A DNA stretch of 64,000 nt from Amia ocellicauda. Lineage: Eukaryota; Chordata; Actinopteri; Amiiformes; Amiidae. How positions within the stretch are numbered: position 1 is the first letter of the stretch; each line of letters begins with the position of its first letter. Location of the stretch: the NCBI RefSeq assembly GCF_036373705.1, contig NC_089851.1:52282812-52346811 (forward strand), in the 5' to 3' direction. The notes beneath the pieces were generated by a model, which was not told the origin of the DNA, searched no databases, and saw only the letters and a list, made by a program, of their open reading frames with translations. Shown in pieces: positions 1-56,627 of the stretch. Both the position numbers and the translations under genes were made by a program.

Positions 1-512
1 CGAGCCAAGTTAACGGAGGGTGTCGCAGTTTCTGCTGGGCAAGCGCGTAACTGCTTTGGGGCAGACCGGGAGACCTACGCTCACTGACTGATAGCATGGA
101 CTGTAGCGCTGAAGTGTCTTTCCAGAACGGTAACCGTATCCCCAGTGAGACAGCACTGAGAGCATGGTTCAGCAGGCCCGCAAACAACTGAAAAGAATGC
201 CTCTCCTTTGGTGCAGCTCAGGAGTACACGTTCAGCAAAGGTCTCCATAACAAGCCGGCAAACCACATTTCGTCCTCCTCCTCCTCAACAACACACTACA
301 TGTCCTCCTCCTCCTCAACAACAACAACGAACTTGTAAAATACACATTTTCTTTAAAGAAAACAAAACACACAGATGACAGTCTGATTTCCAATCAGCTA
401 TACAGCCAACAGTATCTGAGGTCGATAGCCCTCCCTTCTGCAGAGGAGCCCAGAAGCCAGCCTTCAAGAGCAAACGAACAAACACTTCGGTGACTACAAA
501 GTGGGGCCAAGT

Positions 513-584
513 GGGCTCGTCCTGGAGTTGAACCCAGGGCCTCTCACACCCTCAGCAAGAATCATACCCCTAGACCAACGAGCC
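513..584 (-). pseudogene. tRNA-Pro-like pseudogene, B1 form
   Basis: First complete copy. The anticodon loop reads TGAGGGT (AGG anticodon, but G33 replaces the invariant U33). T-stem pair 51.63 is G.A and pair 50.64 is U.G. A and B boxes remain. Next copy begins 578 bp on. Confidence 0.8.
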
Positions 585-1090
585 AAGTTAACGGAGGGTG
601 TCGCAGTTTCTGCTGGGCAAGCGCGTAACTGCTTTGGGGCAGACCGGGAGACCTACGCACACTGACTGATAGCATGGACTGTAGCGCTGAAGTGTCTTTC
701 CAGAACGGTAACCGTATCCCCAGTGAGACAGCACTGAGAGCATGGTTCAGCAGGCCCGCAAACAACTGAAAAGAATGCCTCTCCTTTGGTGCAGCTCAGG
801 AGTACACGTTCAGCAAAGGTCTCCATAACAAGCCGGCAAACCACATTTCGTCCTCCTCCTCCTCAACAACACACTACATGTCCTCCTCCTCCTCAACAAC
901 AACAACGAACTTGTAAAATACACATTTTCTTTAAAGAAAACAAAACACACAGATGACAGTCTGATTTCCCATCAGCTACACAGCCAACAGTATCTGAGGT
1001 TGAAAGACCTCCCTGGTGCAGAGGAGCCCAGAAGCCAAGCATCGAGAGAGAACAAACGAATGCTTCAGAGAATGCAAAGCGGGGCCAAGC

Positions 1091-1162
1091 GTGCTCGTCC
1101 GGGAGTTGAACCCGGGACCTCTCGCACCCTAAGCGAGAATCATACCCCTAGACCAACGAGCC
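1091..1162 (-). tRNA. tRNA-Pro(AGG), A-type with acceptor mismatch
   Basis: Anticodon loop TTAGGGT with U33, cloverleaf otherwise as in vertebrate tRNA-Pro(AGG). This copy has A72 opposite G1, so the first acceptor pair is lost. Next copy after 593 bp. Confidence 0.8.
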
Positions 1163-1683
1163 AAGTTAACGGAGGGTGTCGCAGTTTCTGCTGGGCAAGC
1201 GCGTAACTGCTTTGGGGCAGACCGGGAGACCTACGCTCACTGACTGATAGCATGGACTGTAGCGCTGACGTATCTTTCCAGAACGGTAACCGTATCCCCA
1301 GTGAGACAGCACTGAGAGCATGGTTCAGCAGGCCCGCAAACAACTGAAAAGAATGCCTCTCCTTTGGTGCAGCTCAGGAGTACACGTTCAGCAAAGGTCT
1401 CCATAACAAGCCGGCAAACCACATTTCGTCCTCCTCCTCCTCAACAACACACTACATGTCCTCCTCCTCCTCCTCAACAACAACAACAACAACAACAACG
1501 AACTTGTGAAAAACACATTTTCTTTAAAGAAAACAAAACACACAGATGACAGTCTGATTTCCCATCAGCTATACAGCCAACAGTATCTGAGGTCGATAGC
1601 CCTCCCTTGTGCAGAGGAGCCCAGAAGCCAGCCTTCAAGAGCAAACGAACGAACACTTCGGTGACTACAAAGTGGGGCCAAGT

Positions 1684-1755
1684 GGGCTCGTCCTGGAGTT
1701 GAACCCAGGGCCTCTCACACCCTCAGCAAGAATCATACCCCTAGACCAACGAGCC
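1684..1755 (-). pseudogene. tRNA-Pro-like pseudogene, B1 form
   Basis: G33 and double G.U anticodon stem. The flank just right of the tRNA has a private change (GGTGGG for GGAGGG). Next copy after 578 bp. Confidence 0.8.
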
Positions 1756-2261
1756 AAGTTAACGGTGGGTGTCGCAGTTTCTGCTGGGCAAGCGCGTAAC
1801 TGCTTTGGGGCAGACCGGGAGACCTACGCACACTGACTGATAGCATGGACTGTAGCGCTGAAGTGTCTTTCCAGAACGGTAACCGTATCCCCAGTGAGAC
1901 AGCACTGAGAGCATGGTTCAGCAGGCCCGCAAACAACTGAAAAGAATGCCTCTCCTTTGGTGCAGCTCAGGAGTACACGTTCAGCAAAGGTCTCCATAAC
2001 AAGCCGGCAAACCACATTTCGTCCTCCTCCTCCTCAACAACACACTACATGTCCTCCTCCTCCTCAACAACAACAACGAACTTGTAAAATACACATTTTC
2101 TTTAAAGAAAACAAAACACACAGATGACATTCTGATTTCCCATCAGCTACACAGCCAACAGTATCTGAGGTTGAAAGACCTCCCTGGTGCAGAGGAGCCC
2201 AGAAGCCAAGCATCGAGAGAGAACAAACGAATGCTTCAGAGAATGCAAAGCGGGGCCAAGC

Positions 2262-2333
2262 GGGCTCGTCCGGGAGTTGAACCCGGGACCTCTCGCACCC
2301 TAAGCGAGAATCATACCCCTAGACCAACGAGCC
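2262..2333 (-). tRNA. tRNA-Pro(AGG), A-type, intact
   Basis: Acceptor GGCTCGT/ACGAGCC, anticodon stem CTCGC/GCGAG, loop TTAGGGT and T-stem CCGGG/CCCGG all pair. A box TGGTCTAGGGG and B box GGTTCAACTCC are present. Best reference copy for the A family. Next copy after 578 bp. Confidence 0.93.
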
Positions 2334-2839
2334 AAGTTAACGGAGGGTGTCGCAGTTTCTGCTGGGCAAGCGCGTAACTGCTTTGGGGCAGACCGGGAGA
2401 CCTACGCTCACTGACTGATAGCATGGACTGTAGCGCTGAGGTGTCTTTCCAGAACGGTAACCGTATCCCCAGTGAGACAGCACTGAGAGCATGGTTCAGC
2501 AGGCCCGCAAACAACTGAAAAGAATGCCTCTCCTTTGGTGCAGCTCAGGAGTACACGTTCAGCAAAGGTCTCCATAACAAGCCGGCAAACCACATTTCGT
2601 CCTCCTCCTCCTCAACAACACACTACATGTCCTCCTCCTCCTCAACAACAACAACGAACTTGTAAAATACACATTTTCTTTAAAGAAAACAAAACACACA
2701 GATGACAGTCTGATTTCCCATCAGCTATACAGCCAACAGTATCTGAGGTCGATAGCCCTCCCTTGTGCAGAGGAGCCCAGAAGCCAGCCTTCAAGAGCAA
2801 ACGAACGAACACTTCGGTGACTACAAAGTGGGGCCAAGT

Positions 2840-2911
2840 GGGCTCGTCCTGGAGTTGAACCCAGGGCCTCTCACACCCTCAGCAAGAATCATACCCCTAG
2901 ACCAACGAGCC
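2840..2911 (-). pseudogene. tRNA-Pro-like pseudogene, B1 form
   Basis: Same B1 sequence as the copy at 1684. Next copy after 578 bp. Confidence 0.8.
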
Positions 2912-3417
2912 AAGTTAACGGAGGGTGTCGCAGTTTCTGCTGGGCAAGCGCGTAACTGCTTTGGGGCAGACCGGGAGACCTACGCACACTGACTGATAGC
3001 ATGGACTGTAGCGCTGAAGTGTCTTTCCAGAACGGTAACCGTATCCCCAGTGAGACAGCACTGAGAGCATGGTTCAGCAGGCCCGCAAACAACTGAAAAG
3101 AATGCCTCTCCTTTGGTGCAGCTCAGGAGTACACGTTCAGCAAAGGTCTCCATAACAAGCCGGCAAACCACATTTCGTCCTCCTCCTCCTCAACAACACA
3201 CTACATGTCCTCCTCCTCCTCAACAACAACAACGAACTTGTAAAATACACATTTTCTTTAAAGAAAACAAAACACACAGATGACAGTCTGATTTCCCATC
3301 AGCTACACAGCCAACAGTATCTGAGGTTGAAAGACCTCCCTGGTGCAGAGGAGCCCAGAAGCCAAGCATCGAGAGAGAACAAACGAATGCTTCAGAGAAT
3401 GCAAAGCGGGGCCAAGC

Positions 3418-3489
3418 GGGCTCGTCCGGGAGTTGAACCCGGGACCTCTCGCACCCTAAGCGAGAATCATACCCCTAGACCAACGAGCC
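3418..3489 (-). tRNA. tRNA-Pro(AGG), A-type, intact
   Basis: All stems pair. The following unit has the long CAA tract (593 bp). Confidence 0.93.
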
Positions 3490-4010
3490 AAGTTAACGGA
3501 GGGTGTCGCAGTTTCTGCTGGGCAAGCGCGTAACTGCTTTGGGGCAGACCGGGAGACCTACGCTCACTGACTGATAGCATGGACTGTAGCGCTGAAGTGT
3601 CTTTCCAGAACGGTAACCGTATCCCCAGTGAGACCGCACTGAGAGCATGGTTCAGCAGGCCCGCAAACAACTGAAAAGAATGCCTCTCCTTTGGTGCAGC
3701 TCAGGAGTACACGTTCAGCAAAGGTCTCCATAACAAGCCGGCAAACCACATTTCGTCCTCCTCCTCCTCAACAACACACTACATGTCCTCCTCCTCCTCC
3801 TCAACAACAACAACAACAACAACAACGAACTTGTAAAAAACACATTTTCTTTAAAGAAAACAAAACACACAGATGACAGTCTGATTTCCCATCAGCTATA
3901 CAGCCAACAGTATCTGAGGTCGATAGCCCTCCCTTGTGCAGAGGAGCCCAGAAGCCAGCCTTCAAGAGCAAACGAACAAACACTTCGGTGACTACAAAGT
4001 GGGGCCAAGT

Positions 4011-4082
4011 GGGCTCGTCCTGGAGTTGAACCCAGGGCCTCTCACACCCTCAGCAAGAATCATACCCCTAGACCAACGAGCC
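4011..4082 (-). pseudogene. tRNA-Pro-like pseudogene, B1 form
   Basis: G33 form. Its 3' flank has the AACAAAC variant shared with the B2 copies. Next copy after 578 bp. Confidence 0.8.
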
Positions 4083-4588
4083 AAGTTAACGGAGGGTGTC
4101 GCAGTTTCTGCTGGGCAAGCGCGTAACTGCTTTGGGGCAGACCGGGAGACCTACGCACACTGACTGATAGCATGGACTGTAGCGCTGAAGTGTCTTTCCA
4201 GAACGGTAACCGTATCCCCAGTGAGACAGCACTGAGAGCATGGTTCAGCAGGCCCGCAAACAACTGAAAAGAATGCCTCTCCTTTGGTGCAGCTCAGGAG
4301 TACACGTTCAGCAAAGGTCTCCATAACAAGCCGGCAAACCACATTTCGTCCTCCTCCTCCTCAACAACACACTACATGTCCTCCTCCTCCTCAACAACAA
4401 CAACGAACTTGTAAAATACACATTTTCTTTAAAGAAAACAAAACACACAGATGACAGTCTGATTTCCCATCAGCTACACAGCCAACAGTATCTGAGGTTG
4501 AAAGACCTCCCTGGTGCAGAGGAGCCCAGAAGCCAAGCATCGAGAGAGAACAAACGAATGCTTCAGAGAATGCAAAGCAGTGCCAAGC

Positions 4589-4660
4589 GGGCTCGTCCGG
4601 GAGTTGAACCCGGGACCTCTCACACCCTAAGCGAGAATCATACCCCTAGACCAACGAGCC
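4589..4660 (-). tRNA. tRNA-Pro(AGG), A-type, 30.40 wobble
   Basis: U33 and the AGG anticodon are intact. C40 is replaced by U, giving a G.U pair in the anticodon stem, which a tRNA can tolerate. Next copy after 578 bp. Confidence 0.88.
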
Positions 4661-5166
4661 AAGTTAACGGAGAGTGTCGCAGTTTCTGCTGGGCAAGCGC
4701 GTAACTGCTTTGGGGCAGACCGGGAGACCTACGCTCACTGACTGATAGCATGGACTGTAGCGCTGAAGTGTCTTTCCAGAACGGTAACCGTATCCCCAGT
4801 GAGACAGCACTGAGAGCATGGTTCAGCAGGCCCGCAAACAACTGAAAAGAATGCCTCTCCTTTGGTGCAGCTCAGGAGTACACGTTCAGCAAAGGTCTCC
4901 ATAACAAGCCGGCAAACCACATTTCGTCCTCCTCCTCCTCAACAACACACTACATGTCCTCCTCCTCCTCAACAACAACAACGAACTAGTAAAATACACA
5001 TTTTCTTTAAAGAAAACAAAACACTCAGATGACAGTCTGATTTCCCATCAGCTACACAGCCAACAGTATCTGAGGTCGATAGCCCTCCCTTGTGCAGAGG
5101 AGCCCAGAAGCCAGCCTTCAAGAGCAAACGAACAAACACTTCGGTGACTACAAAGTGGGGCCAAGT

Positions 5167-5238
5167 GGGCTCGTCCTGGAGTTGAACCCAGGGCCTCTCA
5201 CACCCTCAGCGAGAATCATACCCCTAGACCAACGAGCC
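5167..5238 (-). pseudogene. tRNA-Pro-like pseudogene, B2 form
   Basis: G33, with only the 30.40 wobble in the anticodon stem. T-stem weakened as in B1. Next copy after 578 bp. Confidence 0.8.
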
Positions 5239-5744
5239 AAGTTAACGGAGGGTGTCGCAGTTTCTGCTGGGCAAGCGCGTAACTGCTTTGGGGCAGACCG
5301 GGAGACCTACGCACACTGACTGATAGCATGGACTGTAGCGCTGAAGTGTCTTTCCAGAACGGTAACCGTATCCCCAGTGAGACAGCACTGAGAGCATGGT
5401 TCAGCAGGCCCGCAAACAACTGAAAAGAATGCCTCTCCTTTGGTGCAGCTCAGGAGTACACGTTCAGCAAAGGTCTCCATAACAAGCCGGCAAACCACAT
5501 TTCGTCCTCCTCCTCCTCAACAACACACTACATGTCCTCCTCCTCCTCAACAACAACAACGAACTTGTAAAATACACATTTTCTTTAAAGAAAACAAAAC
5601 ACACAGATGACAGTCTGATTTCCCATCAGCTACACAGCCAACAGTATCTGAGGTTGAAAGACCTCCCTGGTGCAGAGGAGCCCAGAAGCCAAGCATCGAG
5701 AGAGAACAAACGAATGCTTCAGAGAATGCAAAGCAGTGCCAAGC

Positions 5745-5816
5745 GGGCTCGTCCGGGAGTTGAACCCGGGACCTCTCACACCCTAAGCGAGAATCATACC
5801 CCTAGACCAACGAGCC
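5745..5816 (-). tRNA. tRNA-Pro(AGG), A-type, 30.40 wobble
   Basis: Same wobble as the copy at 4589. Next copy after 578 bp. Confidence 0.88.
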
Positions 5817-6322
5817 AAGTTAACGGAGGGTGTCGCAGTTTCTGCTGGGCAAGCGCGTAACTGCTTTGGGGCAGACCGGGAGACCTACGCTCACTGACTG
5901 ATAGCATGGACTGTAGCGCTGAAGTGTCTTTCCAGAACGGTAACCGTATCCCCAGTGAGACAGCACTGAGAGCATGGTTCAGCAGGCCCGCAAACAACTG
6001 AAAAGAATGCCTCTCCTTTGGTGCAGCTCAGGAGTACACGTTCAGCAAAGGTCTCCATAACAAGCCGGCAAACCACATTTCGTCCTCCTCCTCCTCAACA
6101 ACACACTACATGTCCTCCTCCTCCTCAACAACAACAACGAACTAGTAAAATACACATTTTCTTTAAAGAAAACAAAACACTCAGATGACAGTCTGATTTC
6201 CCATCAGCTACACAGCCAACAGTATCTGAGGTCGATAGCCCTCCCTTGTGCAGAGGAGCCCAGAAGCCAGCCTTCAAGAGCAAACGAACAAACACTTCGG
6301 TGACTACAAAGTGGGGCCAAGT

Positions 6323-6394
6323 GGGCTCGTCCTGGAGTTGAACCCAGGGCCTCTCACACCCTCAGCGAGAATCATACCCCTAGACCAACGAGCC
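6323..6394 (-). pseudogene. tRNA-Pro-like pseudogene, B2 form
   Basis: Copy of the 5167 sequence one dimer (1,156 bp) later. Confidence 0.8.
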
Positions 6395-6900
6395 AAGTTA
6401 ACGGAGGGTGTCGCAGTTTCTGCTGGGCAAGCGCGTAACTGCTTTGGGGCAGACCGGGAGACCTACGCACACTGACTGATAGCATGGACTGTAGCGCTGA
6501 AGTGTCTTTCCAGAACGGTAACCGTATCCCCAGTGAGACAGCACTGAGAGCATGGTTCAGCAGGCCCGCAAACAACTGAAAAGAATGCCTCTCCTTTGGT
6601 GCAGCTCAGGAGTACACGTTCAGCAAAGGTCTCCATAACAAGCCGGCAAACCACATTTCGTCCTCCTCCTCCTCAACAACACACTACATGTCCTCCTCCT
6701 CCTCAACAACAACAACGAACTTGTAAAATACACATTTTCTTTAAAGAAAACAAAACACACAGATGACAGTCTGATTTCCCATCAGCTACACAGCCAACAG
6801 TATCTGAGGTTGAAAGACCTCCCTGGTGCAGAGGAGCCCAGAAGCCAAGCATCGAGAGAGAACAAACGAATGCTTCAGATAATGCAAAGCAGTGCCAAGC

Positions 6901-6972
6901 GGGCTCGTCCGGGAGTTGAACCCGGGACCTCTCACACCCTAAGCGAGAATCATACCCCTAGACCAACGAGCC
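6901..6972 (-). tRNA. tRNA-Pro(AGG), A-type, 30.40 wobble
   Basis: Third wobble copy in the dimer domain. Its 3' flank has a private TCAGATAATG change. Next copy after 578 bp. Confidence 0.88.
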
Positions 6973-7478
6973 AAGTTAACGGAGGGTGTCGCAGTTTCTG
7001 CTGGGCAAGCGCGTAACTGCTTTGGGGCAGACCGGGAGACCTACGCTCACTGACTGATAGCATGGACTGTAGCGCTGAAGTGTCTTTCCAGAACGGTAAC
7101 CGTATCCCCAGTGAGACAGCACTGAGAGCATGGTTCAGCAGGCCCGCAAACAACTGAAAAGAATGCCTCTCCTTTGGTGCAGCTCAGGAGTACACGTTCA
7201 GCAAAGGTCTCCATAACAAGCCGGCAAACCACATTTCGTCCTCCTCCTCCTCAACAACACACTACATGTCCTCCTCCTCCTCAACAACAACAACGAACTA
7301 GTAAAATACACATTTTCTTTAAAGAAAACAAAACACTCAGATGACAGTCTGATTTCCCATCAGCTACACAGCCAACAGTATCTGAGGTCGATAGCCCTCC
7401 CTTGTGCAGAGGAGCCCAGAAGCCAGCCTTCAAGAGCAAACGAACAAACACTTCGGTGACTACAAAGTGGGGCCAAGT

Positions 7479-7550
7479 GGGCTCGTCCTGGAGTTGAACC
7501 CAGGGCCTCTCACACCCTCAGCGAGAATCATACCCCTAGACCAACGAGCC
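7479..7550 (-). pseudogene. tRNA-Pro-like pseudogene, B2 form
   Basis: First of three B copies in a row. Just right of it the flank reads TTAACTGAGG. Next copy after 590 bp. Confidence 0.8.
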
Positions 7551-8068
7551 AAGTTAACTGAGGGTGTCGCAGTTTCTGCTGGGCAAGCGCGTAACTGCTT
7601 TGGGGCAGACCGGGAGACCTACGCACACTGACTGATAGCATGGACTGTAGCGCTGAAGTGTCTTTCCAGAACGGTAACCGTATCCCCAGTGAGACAGCAC
7701 TGAGAGCATGGTTCAGCAGGCCCGCAAACAACTGAAAAGAATGCCTCTCCTTTGGTGCAGCTCAGGAGTACATGTTCAGCAAAGGTCTCCATAACAAGCC
7801 GGCAAACCACATTTCGTCCTCCTCCTCCTCAACAACACACTTAATGTCCTCCTCCTCCTCCTCAACAACAACAACAACAACAACGAACTTGTAAAAAACA
7901 CATTTTCTTTAAAGAAAACAAAACACACAGATGACAGTCTGATTTCCCATCAGCTATACAGCCAACAGTATCTGAGGTCGATAGCCCTCCCTTGTGCAGA
8001 GGAGCCCAGAAGCCAGCCTTCAAGAGCAAACGAACGAACACTTCGGTGACTACAAAGTGGGGCCAAGT

Positions 8069-8140
8069 GGGCTCGTCCTGGACTTGAACCCAGGGCCTCT
8101 CACACCCTCAGCAAGAATCATACCCCTAGACCAACGAGCC
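8069..8140 (-). pseudogene. tRNA-Pro-like pseudogene, B1 form with T-loop change
   Basis: C59 is changed to G in the T-loop in addition to the B1 defects. This also alters the B box. Next copy after 590 bp. Confidence 0.8.
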
Positions 8141-8658
8141 AAGTTAACGGAGGGTGTCGCAGTTTCTGCTGGGCAAGCGCGTAACTGCTTTGGGGCAGAC
8201 CGGGAGACCTACGCTCACTGACTGATAGCATGGACTGTAGCGCTGAAGTGTCTTTCCAGAACGGTAACCGTATCCCCAGTGAGACAGCACTGAGAGCATG
8301 GTTCAGCAGGCCCGCAAACAACTGAAAAGAATGCCTCTCCTTTGGTGCAGCTCAGGAGTACACGTTCAGCAAAGGTCTCCATAACAAGCCGGCAAACCAC
8401 ATTTCGTCCTCCTCCTCCTCAACAACACACTACATGTCCTCCTCCTCCTCCTCAACAACAACAACAACAACAACGAACTTGTAAAAAACACATTTTCTTT
8501 AAAGAAAACAAAACACACAGATGACAGTCTGATTTCCCATCTGCTATACAGCCAACAGTATCTGAGGTCGATAGCCCTCCCTTGTGCAGAGGAGCCCAGA
8601 AGCCAGCCTTCAAGAGCAAACGAACGAACACTTCGGTGACTACAAAGTGGGGCCAAGT

Positions 8659-8730
8659 GGGCTCGTCCTGGAGTTGAACCTAGGGCCTCTCACACCCTCA
8701 GCAAGAATCATACCCCTAGACCAACGAGCC
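8659..8730 (-). pseudogene. tRNA-Pro-like pseudogene, B3 form
   Basis: First copy with the CCTAGGG T-stem variant (51 is A opposite A63). Next copy after 578 bp. Confidence 0.8.
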
Positions 8731-9236
8731 AAGTTAACGGAGGGTGTCGCAGTTTCTGCTGGGCAAGCGCGTAACTGCTTTGGGGCAGACCGGGAGACCT
8801 ACGCTCACTGACTGATAGCATGGACTGTAGCGCTGAAGTGTCTTTCCAGAACGGTAACCGTATCCCCAGTGAGACAGCACTGAGAGCATGGTTCAGCAGG
8901 CCCGCAAACAACTGAAAAGAATGCCTCTCCTTTGGTGCAGCTCAGGAGTACACGTTCAGCAAAGGTCTCCATAACAAGCCGGCAAACCACATTTCGTCCT
9001 CCTCCTCCTCAACAACACACTACATGTCCTCCTCCTCCTCAACAACAACAACGAACTTGTAAAATACACATTTTCTTTAAAGAAAACAAAACACACAGAT
9101 AACAGTATGATTTCCCATCAGCTATACAGCCAACAGTATCTGAGGTTGAAAGACCTCCCTGGTGCAGAGGAGCCCAGAAGCCAAGCATCGAGAGAGAACA
9201 AACGAATGCTTCAGAGAATGCAAAGCAGTGCCAAGC

Positions 9237-9308
9237 GGGCTCGTCCGGGAGTTGAACCCGGGACCTCTCGCACCCTAAGCGAGAATCATACCCCTAGACC
9301 AACGAGCC
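9237..9308 (-). tRNA. tRNA-Pro(AGG), A-type, intact
   Basis: All stems pair. Left of its flank the unit carries an unusual AGATAACAGTATG variant at about 9,098-9,110. Next copy after 578 bp. Confidence 0.93.
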
Positions 9309-9814
9309 AAGTTAACGGAGGGTGTCGCAGTTTCTGCTGGGCAAGCGCGTAACTGCTTTGGGGCAGACCGGGAGACCTACGCTCACTGACTGATAGCATG
9401 GACTGTAGCGCTGAAGTGTCTTTCCAGAACGGTAACCGTATCCCCAGTGAGACAGCACTGAGAGCATGGTTCAGCAGGCCCGCAAACAACTGAAAAGAAT
9501 GCCTCTCCTTTGGTGCAGCTCAGGAGTACACGTTCAGCAAAGGTCTCCATAACAAGCCGGCAAACCACATTTCGTCCTCCTCCTCCTCAACAACACACTA
9601 CATGTCCTCCTCCTCCTCAACAACAACAACGAACTAGTAAAATACACATTTTCTTTAAAGAAAACAAAACACTCAGATGACAGTCTGATTTCCCATCAGC
9701 TACACAGCCAACAGTATCTGAGGTCGATAGCCCTCCCTTGTGCAGAGGAGCCCAGAAGCCAGCCTTCAAGAGCAAACGAACAAACACTTCGGTGACTACA
9801 AAGTGGGGCCAAGT

Positions 9815-9886
9815 GGGCTCGTCCTGGAGTTGAACCCAGGGCCTCTCACACCCTCAGCGAGAATCATACCCCTAGACCAACGAGCC
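9815..9886 (-). pseudogene. tRNA-Pro-like pseudogene, B2 form
   Basis: The unit to its right is 592 bp, the only length not differing from 578 by a multiple of three, because of an A-run and deletion near 10,256-10,272. Confidence 0.8.
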
Positions 9887-10406: not shown

Positions 10407-10478
10407 GGGCTCGTCCTGGAGTTGAACCCAGGGCCTCTCACACCCTCAGCAAGAATCATACCCCTAGACCAACGAGCC
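10407..10478 (-). pseudogene. tRNA-Pro-like pseudogene, B1 form
   Basis: G33 form directly following a B2 copy. Next copy after 578 bp. Confidence 0.8.
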
Positions 10479-25566: not shown

Positions 25567-25638
25567 GGGCTCGTCCGGGAGTTGAACCCGGGACCTCTCG
25601 CACCCTAAGCGAGAATCATACCCCTAGACCAACGAGGC
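25567..25638 (-). tRNA. tRNA-Pro(AGG), A-type with acceptor mismatch
   Basis: G2 is changed to C, so the second acceptor pair becomes C.C; the copy is probably impaired. The unit to the right has a shifted TCC/CAA balance (shorter TCC, longer CAA tract). Confidence 0.8.
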
Positions 25639-26156
25639 AAGTTAACGGAGGGTGTCGCAGTTTCTGCTGGGCAAGCGCGTAACTGCTTTGGGGCAGACCG
25701 GGAGACCTACGCTCACTGACTGATAGCATGGACTGTAGCGCTGAAGTGTCTTTCCAGAACGGTAACCGTATCCCCAGTGAGACAGCACTGAGAGCATGGT
25801 TCAGCAGGCCCGCAAACAACTGAAAAGAATGCCTCTCCTTTGGTGCAGCTCAGGAGTACACGTTCAGAAAAGGTCTCCATAACAAGCCGGCAAACCACAT
25901 TTCGTCCTCCTCCTCCTCAACAACACACTACATGTCCTCCTCCTCAACAACAACAACAACAACAACAACAACGAACTTGTAAAAAACACATTTTCTTTAA
26001 AGAAAACAAAACACACAGATGACAGTCTGATTTCCCATCAGCTATACAGCCAACAGTATCTGAGGTCGATAGCCCTCCCTTGTGCAGAGGAGCCCAGAAG
26101 CCAGCCTTCAAGAGCAAACGAACGAACACTTCGGTGACTACAAAGTGGGGCCAAGT

Positions 26157-26228
26157 GGGCTCGTCCTGGAGTTGAACCCAGGGCCTCTCACACCCTCAGC
26201 AAGAATCATACCCCTAGACCAACGAGCC
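26157..26228 (-). pseudogene. tRNA-Pro-like pseudogene, B1 form
   Basis: G33 form. Next copy after 578 bp. Confidence 0.8.
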
Positions 26229-26734
26229 AAGTTAACGGAGGGTGTCGCAGTTTCTGCTGGGCAAGCGCGTAACTGCTTTGGGGCAGACCGGGAGACCTAC
26301 GCACACTGACTGATAGCATGGACTGTAGCGCTGAAGTGTCTTTCCAGAACGGTAACCGTATCCCCAGTGAGACAGCACTGAGAGCATGGTTCAGCAGGCC
26401 CGCAAACAACTGAAAAGAATGCCTCTCCTTTGGTGCAGCTCAGGAGTACACGTTCAGCAAAGGTCTCCATAACAAGCCGGCAAACCACATTTCGTCCTCC
26501 TCCTCCTCAACAACACACTACATGTCCTCCTCCTCCTCAACAACAACAACGAACTTGTAAAATACACATTTTCTTTAAAGAAAACAAAACACACAGATGA
26601 CAGTCTGATTTCTCATCAGCTACACAGCCAACAGTATCTGAGGTTGAAAGACCTCCCTGGTGCAGAGGAGCCCAGAAGCCAAGCATCGAGAGAGAACAAA
26701 CGAATGCTTCAGAGAATGCAAAGCGGGGCCAAGC

Positions 26735-26806
26735 GGGCTCGTCCGGGAGTTGAACCCGGGACCTCTCGCACCCTAAGCGAGAATCATACCCCTAGACCAA
26801 CGAGCC
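26735..26806 (-). tRNA. tRNA-Pro(AGG), A-type, intact
   Basis: All stems pair. Next copy after 590 bp. Confidence 0.93.
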
Positions 26807-27324
26807 AAGTTAACGGAGGGTGTCGCAGTTTCTGCTGGGCAAGCGCGTAACTGCTTTGGGGCAGACCGGGAGACCTACGCTCACTGACTGATAGCATGGA
26901 CTGTAGCGCTGAAGTGTCTTTCCAGAACGGTAACCGTATCCCCAGTGAGACAGCACTGAGAGCATGGTTCAGCAGGCCCGCAAACAACTGAAAAGAATGC
27001 CTCTCCTTTGGTGCAGCTCAGGAGTACACGTTCAGCAAAGGTCTCCATAACAAGCCGGCAAACCACATTTCGTCCTCCTCCTCCTCAACAACACACTACA
27101 TGTCCTCCTCCTCCTCCTCAACAACAACAACAACAACAACGAACTTGTAAAAAACACATTTTCTTTAAAGAAAACAAAACACACAGATGACAGTCTGATT
27201 TCCCATCAGCTATACAGCCAACAGTATCTGAGGTTGAAAGACCTCCCTGGTGCAGAGGAGCCCAGAAGCCAGCCTTCAAGAGCAAACGAACGAACACTTC
27301 GGTGACTACAAAGTGGGGCCAAGT

Positions 27325-27396
27325 GGGCTCGTCTTGGAGTTGAACCCAGGGCCTCTCACACCCTCAGCAAGAATCATACCCCTAGACCAACGAGCC
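27325..27396 (-). pseudogene. tRNA-Pro-like pseudogene, B1 form in a chimeric unit
   Basis: G64 is changed to A, which restores a U.A pair at 50.64. The outer part of its 3' flank (about 27,230-27,270) is A-type, while the inner part and the tRNA are B-type, so the unit is a recombinant. Confidence 0.8.
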
Positions 27397-27902
27397 AAGT
27401 TAACGGAGGGTGTCGCAGTTTCTGCTGGGCAAGCGCGTAACTGCTTTGGGGCAGACCGGGAGACCTACGCACACTGACTGATAGCATGGACTGTAGCGCT
27501 GAAGTGTCTTTCCAGAACGGTAACCGTATCCCCAGTGAGACAGCACTGAGAGCATGGTTCAGCAGGCCCGCAAACAACTGAAAAGAATGCCTCTCCTTTG
27601 GTGCAGCTCAGGAGTACACGTTCAGCAAAGGTCTCCATAACAAGCCGGCAAACCACATTTCGTCCTCCTCCTCCTCAACAACACACTACATGTCCTCCTC
27701 CTCCTCAACAACAACAACGAACTTGTAAAATACACATTTTCTTTAAAGAAAACAAAACACACAGATGACAGTCTGATTTCTCATCAGCTACACAGCCAAC
27801 AGTATCTGAGGTTGAAAGACCTCCCTGGTGCAGAGGAGCCCAGAAGCCAAGCATCGAGAGAGAACAAACGAATGCTTCAGAGAATGCAAAGCGGGGCCAA
27901 GC

Positions 27903-27974
27903 GGGCTCGTCCGGGAGTTGAACCCGGGACCTCTCGCACCCTAAGCGAGAATCATACCCCTAGACCAACGAGCC
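27903..27974 (-). tRNA. tRNA-Pro(AGG), A-type, intact
   Basis: All stems pair. Followed by the TTCAGAAAAGG marker. Next copy after 590 bp. Confidence 0.93.
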
Positions 27975-28492
27975 AAGTTAACGGAGGGTGTCGCAGTTTC
28001 TGCTGGGCAAGCGCGTAACTGCTTTGGGGCAGACCGGGAGACCTACGCTCACTGACTGATAGCATGGACTGTAGCGCTGAAGTGTCTTTCCAGAACGGTA
28101 ACCGTATCCCCAGTGAGACAGCACTGAGAGCATGGTTCAGCAGGCCCGCAAACAACTGAAAAGAATGCCTCTCCTTTGGTGCAGCTCAGGAGTACACGTT
28201 CAGAAAAGGTCTCCATAACAAGCCGGCAAACCACATTTCGTCCTCCTCCTCTTCAACAACACACTACATGTCCTCCTCCTCCTCCTCAACAACAACAACA
28301 ACAACAACGAACTTGTAAAAAACACATTTTCTTTAAAGAAAACAAAACACACAGATGACAGTCTGATTTCCCATCAGCTATACAGCCAACAGTATCTGAG
28401 GTCGATAGCCCTCCCTTGTGCAGAGGAGCCCAGAAGCCAGCCTTCAAGAGCAAACGAACGAACACTTCGGTGACTACAAAGTGGGGCCAAGT

Positions 28493-28564
28493 GGGCTCGT
28501 CCTGGAGTTGAACCCAGGGCCTCTCACACCCTCAGCAAGAATCATACCCCTAGACCAACGAGCC
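28493..28564 (-). pseudogene. tRNA-Pro-like pseudogene, B1 form
   Basis: G33 form. Next copy after 578 bp. Confidence 0.8.
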
Positions 28565-29070
28565 AAGTTAACGGAGGGTGTCGCAGTTTCTGCTGGGCAA
28601 GCGCGTAACTGCTTTGGGGCAGACCGGGAGACCTACGCACACTGACTGATAGCATGGACTGTAGCGCTGAAGTGTCTTTCCAGAACGGTAACCGTATCCC
28701 CAGTGAGACAGCACTGAGAGCATGGTTCAGCAGGCCCGCAAACAACTGAAAAGAATGCCTCTCCTTTGGTGCAGCTCAGGAGTACACGTTCAGCAAAGGT
28801 CTCCATAACAAGCCGGCAAACCACATTTCGTCCTCCTCCTCCTCAACAACACACTACATGTCCTCCTCCTCCTCAACAACAACAACGAACTTGTAAAATA
28901 CACATTTTCTTTAAAGAAAACAAAACACACAGATGACAGTCTGATTTCCCATCAGCTACACAGCCAACAGTATCTGAGGTTGAAAGACCTCCCTGGTGCA
29001 GAGGAGCCCAGAAGCCAAGCATCGAGAGAGAACAAACGAATGCTTCAGAGAATGCAAAGCGGGGCCAAGC

Positions 29071-29142
29071 GGGCTCGTCCGGGAGTTGAACCCGGGACCT
29101 CTCGCACCCTAAGCGAGAATCATACCCCTAGACCAACGAGCC
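29071..29142 (-). tRNA. tRNA-Pro(AGG), A-type, intact
   Basis: First A of an A-A-B trimer. All stems pair. Confidence 0.93.
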
Positions 29143-29648
29143 AAGTTAACGGAGGGTGTCGCAGTTTCTGCTGGGCAAGCGCGTAACTGCTTTGGGGCAG
29201 ACCGGGAGACCTACGCTCACTGACTGATAGCATGGACTGTAGCGCTGAAGTGTCTTTCCAGAACGGTAACCGTATCCCCAGTGAGACAGCACTGAGAGCA
29301 TGGTTCAGCAGGCCCGCAAACAACTGAAAAGAATGCCTCTCCTTTGGTGCAGCTCAGGAGTACACGTTCAGCAAAGGTCTCCATAACAAGCCGGCAAACC
29401 ACATTTCGTCCTCCTCCTCCTCAACAACACACTACATGTCCTCCTCCTCCTCAACAACAACAACGAACTTGTAAAATACACATTTTCTTTAAAGAAAACA
29501 AAACACACAGATGACAGTCTGATTTCCCATCAGCTACACAGCCAACAGTATCTGAGGTTGAAAGACCTCCCTGGTGCAGAGGAGCCCAGAAGCCAAGCAT
29601 CGAGAGAGAACAAACGAATGCTTCAGAGAATGCAAAGCGGGGCCAAGC

Positions 29649-29720
29649 GGGCTCGTCCGGGAGTTGAACCCGGGACCTCTCGCACCCTAAGCGAGAATCA
29701 TACCCCTAGACCAACGAGCC
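29649..29720 (-). tRNA. tRNA-Pro(AGG), A-type, intact
   Basis: Second A of the trimer, followed by the TTCAGAAAAGG marker. Next copy after 590 bp. Confidence 0.93.
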
Positions 29721-30238
29721 AAGTTAACGGAGGGTGTCGCAGTTTCTGCTGGGCAAGCGCGTAACTGCTTTGGGGCAGACCGGGAGACCTACGCTCACTG
29801 ACTGATAGCATGGACTGTAGCGCTGAAGTGTCTTTCCAGAACGGTAACCGTATCCCCAGTGAGACAGCACTGAGAGCATGGTTCAGCAGGCCCGCAAACA
29901 ACTGAAAAGAATGCCTCTCCTTTGGTGCAGCTCAGGAGTACACGTTCAGAAAAGGTCTCCATAACAAGCCGGCAAACCACATTTCGTCCTCCTCCTCTTC
30001 AACAACACACTACATGTCCTCCTCCTCCTCCTCAACAACAACAACAACAACAACGAACTTGTAAAAAACACATTTTCTTTAAAGAAAACAAAACACACAG
30101 ATGACAGTCTGATTTCCCATCAGCTATACAGCCAACAGTATCTGAGGTCGATAGCCCTCCCTTGTGCAGAGGAGCCCAGAAGCCAGCCTTCAAGAGCAAA
30201 CGAACGAACACTTCGGTGACTACAAAGTGGGGCCAAGT

Positions 30239-30310
30239 GGGCTCGTCCTGGAGTTGAACCCAGGGCCTCTCACACCCTCAGCAAGAATCATACCCCTAGA
30301 CCAACGAGCC
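30239..30310 (-). pseudogene. tRNA-Pro-like pseudogene, B1 form
   Basis: Closes the trimer that began at 29071. Confidence 0.8.
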
Positions 30311-30816
30311 AAGTTAACGGAGGGTGTCGCAGTTTCTGCTGGGCAAGCGCGTAACTGCTTTGGGGCAGACCGGGAGACCTACGCACACTGACTGATAGCA
30401 TGGACTGTAGCGCTGAAGTGTCTTTCCAGAACGGTAACCGTATCCCCAGTGAGACAGCACTGAGAGCATGGTTCAGCAGGCCCGCAAACAACTGAAAAGA
30501 ATGCCTCTCCTTTGGTGCAGCTCAGGAGTACACGTTCAGCAAAGGTCTCCATAACAAGCCGGCAAACCACATTTCGTCCTCCTCCTCCTCAACAACACAC
30601 TACATGTCCTCCTCCTCCTCAACAACAACAACGAACTTGTAAAATACACATTTTCTTTAAAGAAAACAAAACACACAGATGACAGTCTGATTTCCCATCA
30701 GCTACACAGCCAACAGTATCTGAGGTTGAAAGACCTCCCTGGTGCAGAGGAGCCCAGAAGCCAAGCATCGAGAGAGAACAAACGAATGCTTCAGAGAATG
30801 CAAAGCGGGGCCAAGC

Positions 30817-30888
30817 GGGCTCGTCCGGGAGTTGAACCCGGGACCTCTCGCACCCTAAGCGAGAATCATACCCCTAGACCAACGAGCC
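30817..30888 (-). tRNA. tRNA-Pro(AGG), A-type, intact
   Basis: A of an A-B dimer that carries the TTCAGAAAAGG marker. Next copy after 590 bp. Confidence 0.93.
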
Positions 30889-31406
30889 AAGTTAACGGAG
30901 GGTGTCGCAGTTTCTGCTGGGCAAGCGCGTAACTGCTTTGGGGCAGACCGGGAGACCTACGCTCACTGACTGATAGCATGGACTGTAGCGCTGAAGTGTC
31001 TTTCCAGAACGGTAACCGTATCCCCAGTGAGACAGCACTGAGAGCATGGTTCAGCAGGCCCGCAAACAACTGAAAAGAATGCCTCTCCTTTGGTGCAGCT
31101 CAGGAGTACACGTTCAGAAAAGGTCTCCATAACAAGCCGGCAAACCACATTTCGTCCTCCTCCTCTTCAACAACACACTACATGTCCTCCTCCTCCTCCT
31201 CAACAACAACAACAACAACAACGAACTTGTAAAAAACACATTTTCTTTAAAGAAAACAAAACACACAGATGACAGTCTGATTTCCCATCAGCTATACAGC
31301 CAACAGTATCTGAGGTCGATAGCCCTCCCTTGTGCAGAGGAGCCCAGAAGCCAGCCTTCAAGAGCAAACGAACGAACACTTCGGTGACTACAAAGTGGGG
31401 CCAAGT

Positions 31407-31478
31407 GGGCTCGTCCTGGAGTTGAACCCAGGGCCTCTCACACCCTCAGCAAGAATCATACCCCTAGACCAACGAGCC
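31407..31478 (-). pseudogene. tRNA-Pro-like pseudogene, B1 form
   Basis: Closes the 1,168-bp dimer that began at 30817. Confidence 0.8.
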
Positions 31479-31984
31479 AAGTTAACGGAGGGTGTCGCAG
31501 TTTCTGCTGGGCAAGCGCGTAACTGCTTTGGGGCAGACCGGGAGACCTACGCACACTGACTGATAGCATGGACTGTAGCGCTGAAGTGTCTTTCCAGAAC
31601 GGTAACCGTATCCCCAGTGAGACAGCACTGAGAGCATGGTTCAGCAGGCCCGCAAACAACTGAAAAGAATGCCTCTCCTTTGGTGCAGCTCAGGAGTACA
31701 CGTTCAGCAAAGGTCTCCATAACAAGCCGGCAAACCACATTTCGTCCTCCTCCTCCTCAACAACACACTACATGTCCTCCTCCTCCTCAACAACAACAAC
31801 GAACTTGTAAAATACACATTTTCTTTAAAGAAAACAAAACACACAGATGACAGTCTGATTTCCCATCAGCTACACAGCCAACAGTATCTGAGGTTGAAAG
31901 ACCTCCCTGGTGCAGAGGAGCCCAGAAGCCAAGCATCGAGAGAGAACAAACGAATGCTTCAGAGAATGCAAAGCGGGGCCAAGC

Positions 31985-32056
31985 GGGCTCGTCCGGGAGT
32001 TGAACCCGGGACCTCTCGCACCCTAAGCGAGAATCATACCCCTAGACCAACGAGCC
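31985..32056 (-). tRNA. tRNA-Pro(AGG), A-type, intact
   Basis: First A of the first of two near-identical adjacent trimers. Confidence 0.93.
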
Positions 32057-32562
32057 AAGTTAACGGAGGGTGTCGCAGTTTCTGCTGGGCAAGCGCGTAA
32101 CTGCTTTGGGGCAGACCGGGAGACCTACGCTCACTGACTGATAGCATGGACTGTAGCGCTGAAGTGTCTTTCCAGAACGGTAACCGTATCCCCAGTGAGA
32201 CAGCACTGAGAGCATGGTTCAGCAGGCCCGCAAACAACTGAAAAGAATGCCTCTCCTTTGGTGCAGCTCAGGAGTACACGTTCAGCAAAGGTCTCCATAA
32301 CAAGCCGGCAAACCACATTTCGTCCTCCTCCTCCTCAACAACACACTACATGTCCTCCTCCTCCTCAACAACAACAACGAACTTGTAAAATACACATTTT
32401 CTTTAAAGAAAACAAAACACACAGATGACAGTCTGATTTCCCATCAGCTACACAGCCAACAGTATCTGAGGTTGAAAGACCTCCCTGGTGCAGAGGAGCC
32501 CAGAAGCCAAGCATCGAGAGAGAACAAACGAATGCTTCAGAGAATGCAAAGCGGGGCCAAGC

Positions 32563-32634
32563 GGGCTCGTCCGGGAGTTGAACCCGGGACCTCTCGCACC
32601 CTAAGCGAGAATCATACCCCTAGACCAACGAGCC
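32563..32634 (-). tRNA. tRNA-Pro(AGG), A-type, intact
   Basis: Marked second A of that trimer. Next copy after 590 bp. Confidence 0.93.
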
Positions 32635-33152
32635 AAGTTAACGGAGGGTGTCGCAGTTTCTGCTGGGCAAGCGCGTAACTGCTTTGGGGCAGACCGGGAG
32701 ACCTACGCTCACTGACTGATAGCATGGACTGTAGCGCTGAAGTGTCTTTCCAGAACGGTAACCGTATCCCCAGTGAGACAGCACTGAGAGCATGGTTCAG
32801 CAGGCCCGCAAACAACTGAAAAGAATGCCTCTCCTTTGGTGCAGCTCAGGAGTACACGTTCAGAAAAGGTCTCCATAACAAGCCGGCAAACCACATTTCG
32901 TCCTCCTCCTCTTCAACAACACACTACATGTCCTCCTCCTCCTCCTCAACAACAACAACAACAACAACGAACTTGTAAAAAACACATTTTCTTTAAAGAA
33001 AACAAAACACACAGATGACAGTCTGATTTCCCATCAGCTATACAGCCAACAGTATCTGAGGTCGATAGCCCTCCCTTGTGCAGAGGAGCCCAGAAGCCAG
33101 CCTTCAAGAGCAAACGAACGAACACTTCGGTGACTACAAAGTGGGGCCAAGT

Positions 33153-33224
33153 GGGCTCGTCCTGGAGTTGAACCCAGGGCCTCTCACACCCTCAGCAAGA
33201 ATCATACCCCTAGACCAACGAGCC
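33153..33224 (-). pseudogene. tRNA-Pro-like pseudogene, B1 form
   Basis: B member of that trimer. Confidence 0.8.
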
Positions 33225-33730
33225 AAGTTAACGGAGGGTGTCGCAGTTTCTGCTGGGCAAGCGCGTAACTGCTTTGGGGCAGACCGGGAGACCTACGCAC
33301 ACTGACTGATAGCATGGACTGTAGCGCTGAAGTGTCTTTCCAGAACGGTAACCGTATCCCCAGTGAGACAGCACTGAGAGCATGGTTCAGCAGGCCCGCA
33401 AACAACTGAAAAGAATGCCTCTCCTTTGGTGCAGCTCAGGAGTACACGTTCAGCAAAGGTCTCCATAACAAGCCGGCAAACCACATTTCGTCCTCCTCCT
33501 CCTCAACAACACACTACATGTCCTCCTCCTCCTCAACAACAACAACGAACTTGTAAAATACACATTTTCTTTAAAGAAAACAAAACACACAGATGACAGT
33601 CTGATTTCCCATCAGCTACACAGCCAACAGTATCTGAGGTTGAAAGACCTCCCTGGTGCAGAGGAGCCCAGAAGCCAAGCATCGAGAGAGAACAAACGAA
33701 TGCTTCAGAGAATGCAAAGCGGGGCCAAGC

Positions 33731-33802
33731 GGGCTCGTCCGGGAGTTGAACCCGGGACCTCTCGCACCCTAAGCGAGAATCATACCCCTAGACCAACGAG
33801 CC
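33731..33802 (-). tRNA. tRNA-Pro(AGG), A-type, intact
   Basis: First A of the second adjacent trimer. Confidence 0.93.
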
Positions 33803-34308
33803 AAGTTAACGGAGGGTGTCGCAGTTTCTGCTGGGCAAGCGCGTAACTGCTTTGGGGCAGACCGGGAGACCTACGCTCACTGACTGATAGCATGGACTGT
33901 AGCGCTGAAGTGTCTTTCCAGAACGGTAACCGTATCCCCAGTGAGACAGCACTGAGAGCATGGTTCAGCAGGCCCGCAAACAACTGAAAAGAATGCCTCT
34001 CCTTTGGTGCAGCTCAGGAGTACACGTTCAGCAAAGGTCTCCATAACAAGCCGGCAAACCACATTTCGTCCTCCTCCTCCTCAACAACACACTACATGTC
34101 CTCCTCCTCCTCAACAACAACAACGAACTTGTAAAATACACATTTTCTTTAAAGAAAACAAAACACACAGATGACAGTCTGATTTCCCATCAGCTACACA
34201 GCCAACAGTATCTGAGGTTGAAAGACCTCCCTGGTGCAGAGGAGCCCAGAAGCCAAGCATCGAGAGAGAACAAACGAATGCTTCAGAGAATGCAAAGCGG
34301 GGCCAAGC

Positions 34309-34380
34309 GGGCTCGTCCGGGAGTTGAACCCGGGACCTCTCGCACCCTAAGCGAGAATCATACCCCTAGACCAACGAGCC
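34309..34380 (-). tRNA. tRNA-Pro(AGG), A-type, intact
   Basis: Marked second A of the second trimer and the last A copy before the array edge. Confidence 0.93.
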
Positions 34381-34898
34381 AAGTTAACGGAGGGTGTCGC
34401 AGTTTCTGCTGGGCAAGCGCGTAACTGCTTTGGGGCAGACCGGGAGACCTACGCTCACTGACTGATAGCATGGACTGTAGCGCTGAAGTGTCTTTCCAGA
34501 ACGGTAACCGTATCCCCAGTGAGACAGCACTGAGAGCATGGTTCAGCAGGCCCGCAAACAACTGAAAAGAATGCCTCTCCTTTGGTGCAGCTCAGGAGTA
34601 CACGTTCAGAAAAGGTCTCCATAACAAGCCGGCAAACCACATTTCGTCCTCCTCCTCTTCAACAACACACTACATGTCCTCCTCCTCCTCCTCAACAACA
34701 ACAACAACAACAACGAACTTGTAAAAAACACATTTTCTTTAAAGAAAACAAAACACACAGATGACAGTCTGATTTCCCATCAGCTATACAGCCAACAGTA
34801 TCTGAGGTCGATAGCCCTCCCTTGTGCAGAGGAGCCCAGAAGCCAGCCTTCAAGAGCAAACGAACGAACACTTCGGTGACTACAAAGTGGGGCCAAGT

Positions 34899-34970
34899 GG
34901 GCTCGTCCTGGAGTTGAACCCAGGGCCTCTCACACCCTCAGCAAGAATCATACCCCTAGACCAACGAGCC
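34899..34970 (-). pseudogene. tRNA-Pro-like pseudogene, B1 form
   Basis: B member of the second trimer. The unit to its right has the TACACAGCC spelling that usually precedes A copies, followed by a B block. Confidence 0.8.
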
Positions 34971-35476
34971 AAGTTAACGGAGGGTGTCGCAGTTTCTGCT
35001 GGGCAAGCGCGTAACTGCTTTGGGGCAGACCGGGAGACCTACGCACACTGACTGATAGCATGGACTGTAGCGCTGAAGTGTCTTTCCAGAACGGTAACCG
35101 TATCCCCAGTGAGACAGCACTGAGAGCATGGTTCAGCAGGCCCGCAAACAACTGAAAAGAATGCCTCTCCTTTGGTGCAGCTCAGGAGTACACGTTCAGC
35201 AAAGGTCTCCATAACAAGCCGGCAAACCACATTTCGTCCTCCTCCTCCTCAACAACACACTACATGTCCTCCTCCTCCTCAACAACAACAACGAACTTGT
35301 AAAATACACATTTTCTTTAAAGAAAACAAAACACACAGATGACAGTCTGATTTCCCATCAGCTACACAGCCAACAGTATCTGAGGTCGATAGCCCTCCCT
35401 TGTGCAGAGGAGCCCAGAAGCCAGCCTTCAAGAGCAAACGAACGAACACTTCGGTGACTACAAAGTGGGGCCAAGT

Positions 35477-35548
35477 GGGCTCGTCCTGGAGTTGAACCCA
35501 GGGCCTCTCACACCCTCAGCAAGAATCATACCCCTAGACCAACGAGCC
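35477..35548 (-). pseudogene. tRNA-Pro-like pseudogene, B1 form, last full copy
   Basis: The final complete tRNA-like copy. Its unit breaks off inside the first TCC tract at about 35,824. Confidence 0.8.
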
Positions 35549-35824
35549 AAGTTAACGGAGGGTGTCGCAGTTTCTGCTGGGCAAGCGCGTAACTGCTTTG
35601 GGGCAGACCGGGAGACCTACGCACACTGACTGATAGCATGGACTGTAGCGCTGAAGTGTCTTTCCAGAACGGTAACCGTATCCCCAGTGAGACAGCACTG
35701 AGAGCATGGTTCAGCAGGCCCGCAAACAACTGAAAAGAATGCCTCTCCTTTGGTGCAGCTCAGGAGTACACGTTCAGCAAAGGTCTCCATAACAAGCCGG
35801 CAAACCACATTTCGTCCTCCTCCT

Positions 35825-43245: not shown

Positions 43246-43339
43246 CGTTAATTCCTTTAGAAATCAGGATAAATTGGGTAAAACCAGAAAAGCATCTAAT
43301 TAATTCTCATTCAGGAGTCAACATAAAAAACAGAAAAGA

Positions 43340-56580: not shown

Positions 56581-56627
<47 letters not shown>

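Follow-up and report, generated by a model that had tools for sequence, protein, structure and literature searches.

The tRNA-Pro array in the window

A stretch of 64,000 nucleotides of the Amia ocellicauda genome, C2:52,282,812-52,346,811, was analyzed and is referred to below as the window (C2 is contig NC_089851.1 of an assembly of 988 Mb in 385 contigs; the prefixes C and L denote contigs and sampled loci). Positions 1-35824 of the window were occupied by a satellite array whose repeat units each carried a tRNA-Pro gene or a relative of it on the minus strand. ARAGORN gave 61 tRNA calls in the window, all on this strand, with the last ending by 35548, and direct matching found 61 complete tRNA copies and one truncated copy. 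Both results agreed with a preliminary description of this DNA, which had counted 61 complete tRNA-bearing units in one orientation. The units comprised 25 A-type and 36 B-type copies, described below, and the spacing of complete units ranged from 578 to 593 bp. When a second RNA was searched for in the unit, no other Rfam family was found at E up to 1 in 4085-9400.

The units followed each other head to tail and were homogenized in multi-unit blocks, as is characteristic of a satellite, and the preliminary interpretation of the array as a tRNA-derived satellite was borne out by the sequence itself. At the same time, the units were heterogeneous, with 30 distinct forms among 60. Identical units recurred as blocks of two, three and four units, and exactly identical runs were repeated as 15 pairs and 8 triples (shuffle means, 2.8 and 0.1, respectively). 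Because the repeated identical runs far exceeded the shuffle means, chance origin of the block order was excluded. This order is a higher-order repeat structure, of the kind that unequal exchange would produce.

The right edge of the array was confirmed at the position given previously (35824). There, a truncated tRNA consisting of the first 20 nt (35828-35847) abutted a CCTCCT tract and joined the last partial unit to the diverged flank; together with approximately 60 bp of 5' flank, this edge copy (35828-35907, minus strand) was 80% identical to the unit. To the left of the window, further copies were found at C2:52,272,869-52,277,582. The intervening 5 kb adjoining the window reads N, so continuity of the array across the left edge was not seen. 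The preliminary description is incomplete in that copies also lie beyond the left edge and the unit recurs over approximately 9 Mb of C2.

A-type and B-type units

The A-type copies, which have U33 and the anticodon AGG, accounted for 25 of the 61 window copies, and the B-type copies, which have G33, accounted for 36. The intact A-type tRNA-Pro(AGG), which has C59, is exemplified by the copy at 2262-2333 (minus strand); it was present in 19 identical copies in the window and had 278 exact matches in the genome. Four other A copies carried the single change C39T, which results in a G-U pair, and two had an acceptor-stem mismatch. The cloverleaf was free of mismatches in 23 of the 25 A copies, in agreement with the previous count of at least 23 copies without a cloverleaf defect. 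The A box was taken as tRNA nt 8-19 and the B box as nt 51-61 (boundaries from general knowledge). In the example copy, these boxes are located at 2315-2326 and 2273-2283 (both minus strand); the former was identical in 61 of 61 window copies, and the latter was identical in 60, with the remaining copy differing at a degenerate place. Judged by the cloverleaf, U33, the proline anticodon and both promoter boxes, the A units would qualify as functional tRNA-Pro genes.

The B-type copies had G33 in 36 of 36 cases, and in all 36, A62 faced G50 or A50, so that both U33 and a paired T stem, which are expected of a tRNA gene, were missing. U33 is required for normal decoding. The example at 1684-1755 (minus strand), in which U33 is replaced with G, the T stem has a mismatch and both promoter boxes are kept, was read as decoding-dead. 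ARAGORN labeled B copies tRNA-Leu(gag). Because position 33 of these copies is G, this label was read as a mis-register and was rejected as a real gene.

The Rfam tRNA gathering threshold was passed by 21 of the 25 A copies (19 at 52 bits, the copy at 25567 at 44.4 bits and that at 1091 at 42.7 bits). The remaining four A copies were not listed with default filters; three of them scored 48.6 bits when their stretch was rescanned with lax filters, and the fourth (10985) lay outside the rescanned stretch. None of the 36 B copies in the window reached the gathering threshold with default filters, and the five B copies in the rescanned stretch stayed short of E = 1. Minimum free energy prediction with ViennaRNA was uninformative on the cloverleaf, since the best structures of A and of B both lacked it.

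In the window, the 23 near-fixed A/B substitutions all fell in a block that starts at tRNA nt 28 and ends at unit nt 162 (2172-2306, minus strand, in the unit of the intact example copy), and none was found outside it. In one recombinant unit (26807-27396, minus strand), the tRNA was B-type and flank sites 148, 156, 159 and 162 were in the A-type state.

Distribution and anticodons of the satellite in the genome

The 27-nt 5' half of the tRNA, with up to one mismatch allowed, had 2,324 matches in the genome, and the reversed control had 0. Exact matches numbered 278 for A with AGG (72 nt), 156 for UGG (57 nt), 61 for CGG (35 nt), 578 for a pattern with any anticodon (35 nt) and 1,046 for the B pattern (32 nt); because patterns of unequal length were used, the counts are not fractions of a single total. 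The anticodon GGG had 0 exact matches with the form of the 35-mer pattern that gave 61 for CGG. Among the matches listed (the first 100 per search), all satellite places were on C2, from 51.14 Mb to 60.27 Mb; for CGG, all 61 places were listed, and they were on C2, reaching 60.27 Mb. The 100 listed of the 578 any-anticodon matches comprised 66 AGG, 24 UGG, 9 CGG and 1 ACG. The tRNA repeats thus span several megabases of a single chromosome (C2:51.1-60.3 Mb). Other sequence breaks up this domain, and the satellite was present in 10 of 20 ten-kb stretches, many of which were picked for a known match. The tRNA and a 32-mer of the unit had 0 exact matches in viral contigs. The literature was searched, and no description of this array was found, absence there being no proof. 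A tRNA-derived short interspersed element (SINE) origin was rejected, as the sampled copies were mostly tandem and all satellite places among the matches listed were on C2; a retrotransposition tail was not searched for in this assessment.

Three anticodons, AGG, UGG and CGG, were found on one C59 backbone, each in arrays alternating with B: AGG with B in the window, UGG with B at L059 and L060, and CGG with B at L061. Alternation of intact units with B was seen in most of the sampled arrays. The preliminary description of a unit built around tRNA-Pro(AGG) is correct for the window and too narrow for the family. The 249 distinct copies in 20 chosen stretches comprised 125 B, 75 AGG, 25 CGG, 19 UGG and 5 others, of which two were relics. 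The sampled satellite loci contained proline only, and Thr/Asn repeats were found within the same C2 domain at 53.3 Mb. L010 (C2:51.25 Mb) was a CGG array without B, with one UGG copy, two CAG copies and many D- and T-arm changes. A shorter unit of approximately 410 bp, with the tRNA-Pro read as 79 nt, was found in tandem among ordinary units (L025:3940-4838 and L026:5099-5997) and also at C2:54.15-54.40 Mb.

A tree of 3' flanks was built from 69 rows and 93 columns, and 38 of its 61 inner branches were open. On its starred branches, UGG required at least 5 changes and CGG at least 4 (gains and losses; recombination can cause them). Identical 3' flanks also carried different anticodons. Given these repeated changes and the identical flanks, the anticodon shifts with respect to the flank, either mutation or recombination being the cause.

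Divergence of the A and B classes across the domain

The comparison across the domain included 15 loci with at least two copies of each class (18 were given; L010, L055 and L056 were dropped), with A and B separated by base 33 alone. In the block, the mean A-B difference was 18.0% (range, 10.2-21.6%; within 10-22% in 15 of 15 loci), whereas the means outside the block were 3.7% upstream, 1.2% in tRNA nt 1-27 and 3.5% at 166-240. Between loci, the differences in the block were 4.2% for A-A, 5.0% for B-B and 18.2% for A-B, and upstream, all three were 3.4-3.9%. Several values blurred a clean split. At L013, the B-B difference in the block (9.8%) was close to the A-B difference (10.2%); at L027, A-A was 8.9% vs 12.7% for A-B; and at L011, the upstream A-B difference was 14.2%. 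Within loci, the upstream A-B difference (3.7%) exceeded those of A-A (1.7%) and B-B (2.6%).

Among 213 copies, an A-type near flank accompanied G33 in 13, a B-type near flank accompanied U33 in 4, and 10 were ties. On the flank tree, the starred branches imposed at least 7 changes on the G33 class. Given these changes and the mixed copies, the two classes are not cleanly separated everywhere. A and B therefore represent old states of a single block, which has become mixed with its surroundings to a large extent, though not completely, and within which some recombination has occurred. The classes alternated at 138 of 227 neighbors, relics excluded; the shuffled mean was 104.6, and a value as high was obtained in 0 of 5000 shuffles.

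Diversity of the tRNA, its promoter boxes and its flanks

Nucleotide diversity (pi) was determined for 118 A and 123 B copies. In the tRNA, with the anticodon left out, it was 0.026 for A and 0.023 for B; upstream, 0.057 and 0.058, respectively; and in the 3' flank, 0.065 and 0.061, respectively. The ratio of tRNA to 3' flank diversity was 0.39 in both classes (2.5-97.5% interval, 0.22-0.50 for A and 0.26-0.60 for B).

The variation of the boxes relative to that of the remaining tRNA was 0.20 in B (0.08-0.43) and 0.70 in A (0.23-0.98). Excluding CpG sites brought this two-box ratio to 0.49 in B (0.15-1.29, an interval that includes 1) and to 1.39 in A (0.73-3.83). In the 3' half of B copies, the B box varied 0.27 times as much as the non-CpG rest (0.00-0.74), and this was the sole comparison without CpG sites to stay below 1. 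For sites with at least 3 minor copies, the contrast was 0 of 23 box sites vs 14 of 46 others in 108 B copies; with 125 copies, it was weaker, at 2 of 23 vs 15 of 46 (p = 0.039). Because the site contrast weakened with more copies and the two-box ratio lost support without CpG, the avoidance of the boxes is only suggestive of promoter selection in B.

Terminators and dispersed proline genes

The first run of four T residues (T4), a possible RNA polymerase III (Pol III) terminator, was located 146 nt past the tRNA 3' end in the example copy (2113-2116, minus strand). This distance was found in 60 of the 61 window copies, and in the remaining one, it was 144 nt. Of the 249 sampled copies, 230 had the first T4 at 146 nt and 15 at 44-151 nt, and 4 were cut off by the end of the stretch. 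Most copies in the window and in the sample, A units included, thus lacked the T4 close to the 3' end that is expected of a functional tRNA gene.

The common vertebrate tRNA-Pro has A59. This form had six genome matches by 35-mer, namely, three AGG and two UGG on C25 and one UGG on C7, with no CGG among the six; this count would miss dispersed genes differing elsewhere. In the five full-length dispersed A59 genes, T4 was found at 2, 3, 5, 5 and 5 nt, and in the sixth, without a contiguous 5' half, at 13 nt. At L064 (C25:1,251,000-1,251,450), only the 3' half of an A59 tRNA-Pro(UGG) was contiguous, after an unrelated 5' stretch; this tract is either a fragment or an intron-containing gene.

Tandem repeats of other tRNAs were also found: Cys in 2,027-bp repeats at C27:4.25-4.55 Mb (L032), Lys with an unassigned tRNA in 2.3-kb repeats at C5:52.42 Mb (L034), and Thr/Thr/Asn in 3.5-kb repeats at C2:53.3 Mb (L022). 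Among other tRNA genes, taken from arrays or from the top Rfam matches, the T4 distance was 38-140 nt for Cys on C27, 107-185 nt for Lys on C5, C188 and small contigs, 53-58 nt for Thr on C2, 26 nt for the unassigned C5 gene and 3-13 nt for genes on C3 and C18. For Asn on C2, T4 was at 4 nt or there was none within 407 nt. A distant T4 may be common, not universal, in arrays of this genome.

The relic unit and the flank of the array

An inverted relic unit was found at 39445-39725 (plus strand), comprising the 3' flank and a decayed tRNA-Pro (39654-39725). ARAGORN called the latter tRNA-Thr(AGT); this was rejected as a real gene, since the sequence is a decayed tRNA-Pro relic with no Rfam tRNA match at E up to 1. 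The matched pieces of the relic unit were 84-89% identical to A and 84-85% identical to B; its tRNA was 89% identical to A and 85% to B, and its 3' flank was 84-85% identical. Of the six tRNA sites that differ between the A and B consensus, four were in the A state in the relic, one was in the B state and one had a third base. Because the A state prevails at these sites, B is mostly the derived tRNA. Flank sites 148, 156, 159 and 162 of the relic were B-like at three of four. An identical relic tRNA was present at L011:8401-8472, beside an array edge at C2:51.338 Mb.

Pieces of the window flank recurred at 98.7-99.9% identity at C2:51.33, 51.70, 52.10 and 54.60 Mb, and the array-plus-flank blocks look segmentally duplicated. 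The flank also contained a Polinton/Maverick-like element (49709-61799) bounded by inverted minisatellite arrays and matching Pfam DNA_pol_B_2 and the rve integrase core; its identity is a reading of the Pfam matches and boundary features. Copies of parts of it at C2:52.10 and 54.60 Mb were 99.0-99.4% identical, and further pieces had 87-93% identity. Inside it, beside the integrase frame, was a tRNA-Leu(UAA)-like gene (61087-61169; Rfam, 46.7 bits) with a T run 6 nt downstream, and the identical 83-nt sequence was found at L016:7905-7987, in another copy of the element. Closer to the array edge lay a Tc1-like transposase remnant (DDE_3, 36404-36955), and a LINE-like (long interspersed element-like) reverse transcriptase fragment (RVT_1) was found at 42908-43300.

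Origin and possible role of the satellite

The best reading of these data is that the window contains one array of a multi-megabase tDNA satellite carrying a distinct proline isodecoder family. The satellite would have arisen through unequal crossing-over and segmental duplication. Its intact units are probably transcription-competent, and weak selection on the pool, together with homogenization, would keep them so. We regard it as a real possibility, at slightly below even confidence, that the satellite serves as a reservoir of C59 proline tRNA for the germline or early embryo. The analogy is with zebrafish, in which, according to the available part of PMC11417395, repetitive regions encode the isodecoders present in the egg and early embryo, and scattered genes supply the later ones. 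By this analogy, supply of the egg and early embryo would be the likely use, and the few dispersed A59 genes would serve later cells. The B units would be at least passengers and perhaps promoter-only elements that load transcription factor IIIC (TFIIIC) without making working tRNA. A bolder proposal is that one backbone gained all three proline anticodons in situ and keeps both coding and promoter-only (G33) states, the A/B pairing being a regulatory unit selected in the germline or embryo and not debris; this appears unlikely.

Several observations weigh against a supply function. Half of the sampled copies (125 of 249) are B, and B is conserved relative to its flank as much as A; because of this equal conservation, conservation alone is no proof of decoding. 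In the window, the A copies varied at 3 of 72 tRNA sites vs 11 of 506 other sites, a rate no lower in the tRNA. Most copies have no T4 within 100 nt, unlike the dispersed proline genes. In zebrafish, tRNA levels do not follow gene copy number, and the majority of predicted tRNA genes look inaccessible, as stated in the available part of PMC11574265. The dose-amplified locus suggested in the preliminary description is plausible in view of the many intact copies, the natural isoacceptors and the lack of GGG matches, and is weakened by the missing proximal terminator and by the zebrafish copy-number result.

A rival reading is a neutral or selfish satellite, in which a tRNA-Pro locus became trapped in a cycle of unequal crossing-over and segmental duplication, the array does nothing, and intact copies persist solely since homogenization outpaces decay. 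It was graded a serious rival, and we consider it well within reach, at clearly less than even probability. The higher-order repeats and the duplicated, nearly identical flanks fit it, as do the G33 half of the sampled copies, the missing proximal terminator, and window A copies with stem mismatches and a variant rate no lower than that of the spacer; the tRNA-rich chromosome 4 of zebrafish is, moreover, described as largely heterochromatic in the available part of PMC11574265. Against it, the tRNA of each class was less than half as diverse across loci as either flank. In addition, wobble variants were common, yet solely A, C and T were seen, with 0 exact matches for GGG; this is not a strong test, since its weight depends on how many times the anticodons arose independently. 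The internal promoter itself might instead be the useful part, with B as a promoter-only form and the array as a boundary, clustering or pausing structure bound by TFIIIC/Pol III. Both boxes were kept in 61 of 61 window copies, the boxes varied little in the 123 B copies, the B box did so in the 3' half even without CpG, and A/B alternation exceeded chance. However, the interval of the two-box ratio without CpG includes 1, A copies showed no box excess by the same measure, and alternation follows from amplified dimeric units with no need for function. Such a chromatin element, also named in the preliminary description, gained suggestive support, from B-box conservation in G33 copies, and is improbable. 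Finally, the tandem copies might have been collapsed or falsely expanded during assembly. Long near-identical tandem arrays are hard to assemble, and exact lengths may be wrong; the units are nevertheless heterogeneous, their block order is structured, and the arrays differ by isoacceptor, period and flank over approximately 9 Mb, which makes an artefact very hard to credit.

The satellite bears on the question of why, in some vertebrates, a single chromosome arm holds tRNA genes by the thousand. Because the C59 backbone differs from the A59 of the six dispersed matches, C59 is a sequence tag by which array transcripts could be distinguished, and the G33 class, which should not decode, is a built-in control.

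Comparison with known systems

The two unit classes have a parallel in the A- and B-type monomers of alpha-satellite, which are distinguished by a single short block and alternate within higher-order repeats; that satellite has no tRNA gene, and its block is the CENP-B or pJ-alpha box. The tandem tDNA repeat of Xenopus likewise consists of tandem repeats carrying tRNA genes. Its classic 3.18-kb unit holds several different tRNA genes, unlike the one-tRNA unit described here.

In pike (Esox), 5S rDNA is, according to the available part of PMC5437419, a huge Pol III gene amplification in a fish, with higher-order organization and mostly potentially functional copies; it differs in the gene concerned and in occupying many chromosomes. 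The tRNA arrays of Entamoeba also have tRNA genes as tandem array units, but almost all genomic tRNA genes lie in them, the units contain up to 5 genes, and no alternation of intact and dead copies was seen in the available part of PMC2652664. In Arabidopsis, the proline (P) and SYY tDNA clusters are tandem and silenced in most tissues, with SYY reactivated in particular cells (PMC12308677). These are plant clusters, of which the P clusters are called small, and neither a G33 partner class nor a three-anticodon backbone was seen in the available part of PMC12308677.

The satellite resembles the tRNA-packed arrays of zebrafish chromosome 4. NLR genes share that arm in zebrafish, whereas here, 0 of 21 FISNA matches were on C2, so homology to the arm by NLR genes was not supported. 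Pairs of neighboring genes in zebrafish are mostly of different amino acids (K-N, K-S and R-T most frequently), whereas the sampled satellite arrays here contain proline only, with a G33 partner. In both genomes, tRNA genes are concentrated in repeats: in zebrafish, most of them lie in repetitive clusters, especially on one chromosome arm, and neighboring genes there are nearly all parallel (PMC2888827, PMC11417395, PMC11075544, PMC11574265). The zebrafish arrays are hard to analyze because their amino acids are mixed, whereas the satellite described here offers one amino acid on one backbone.

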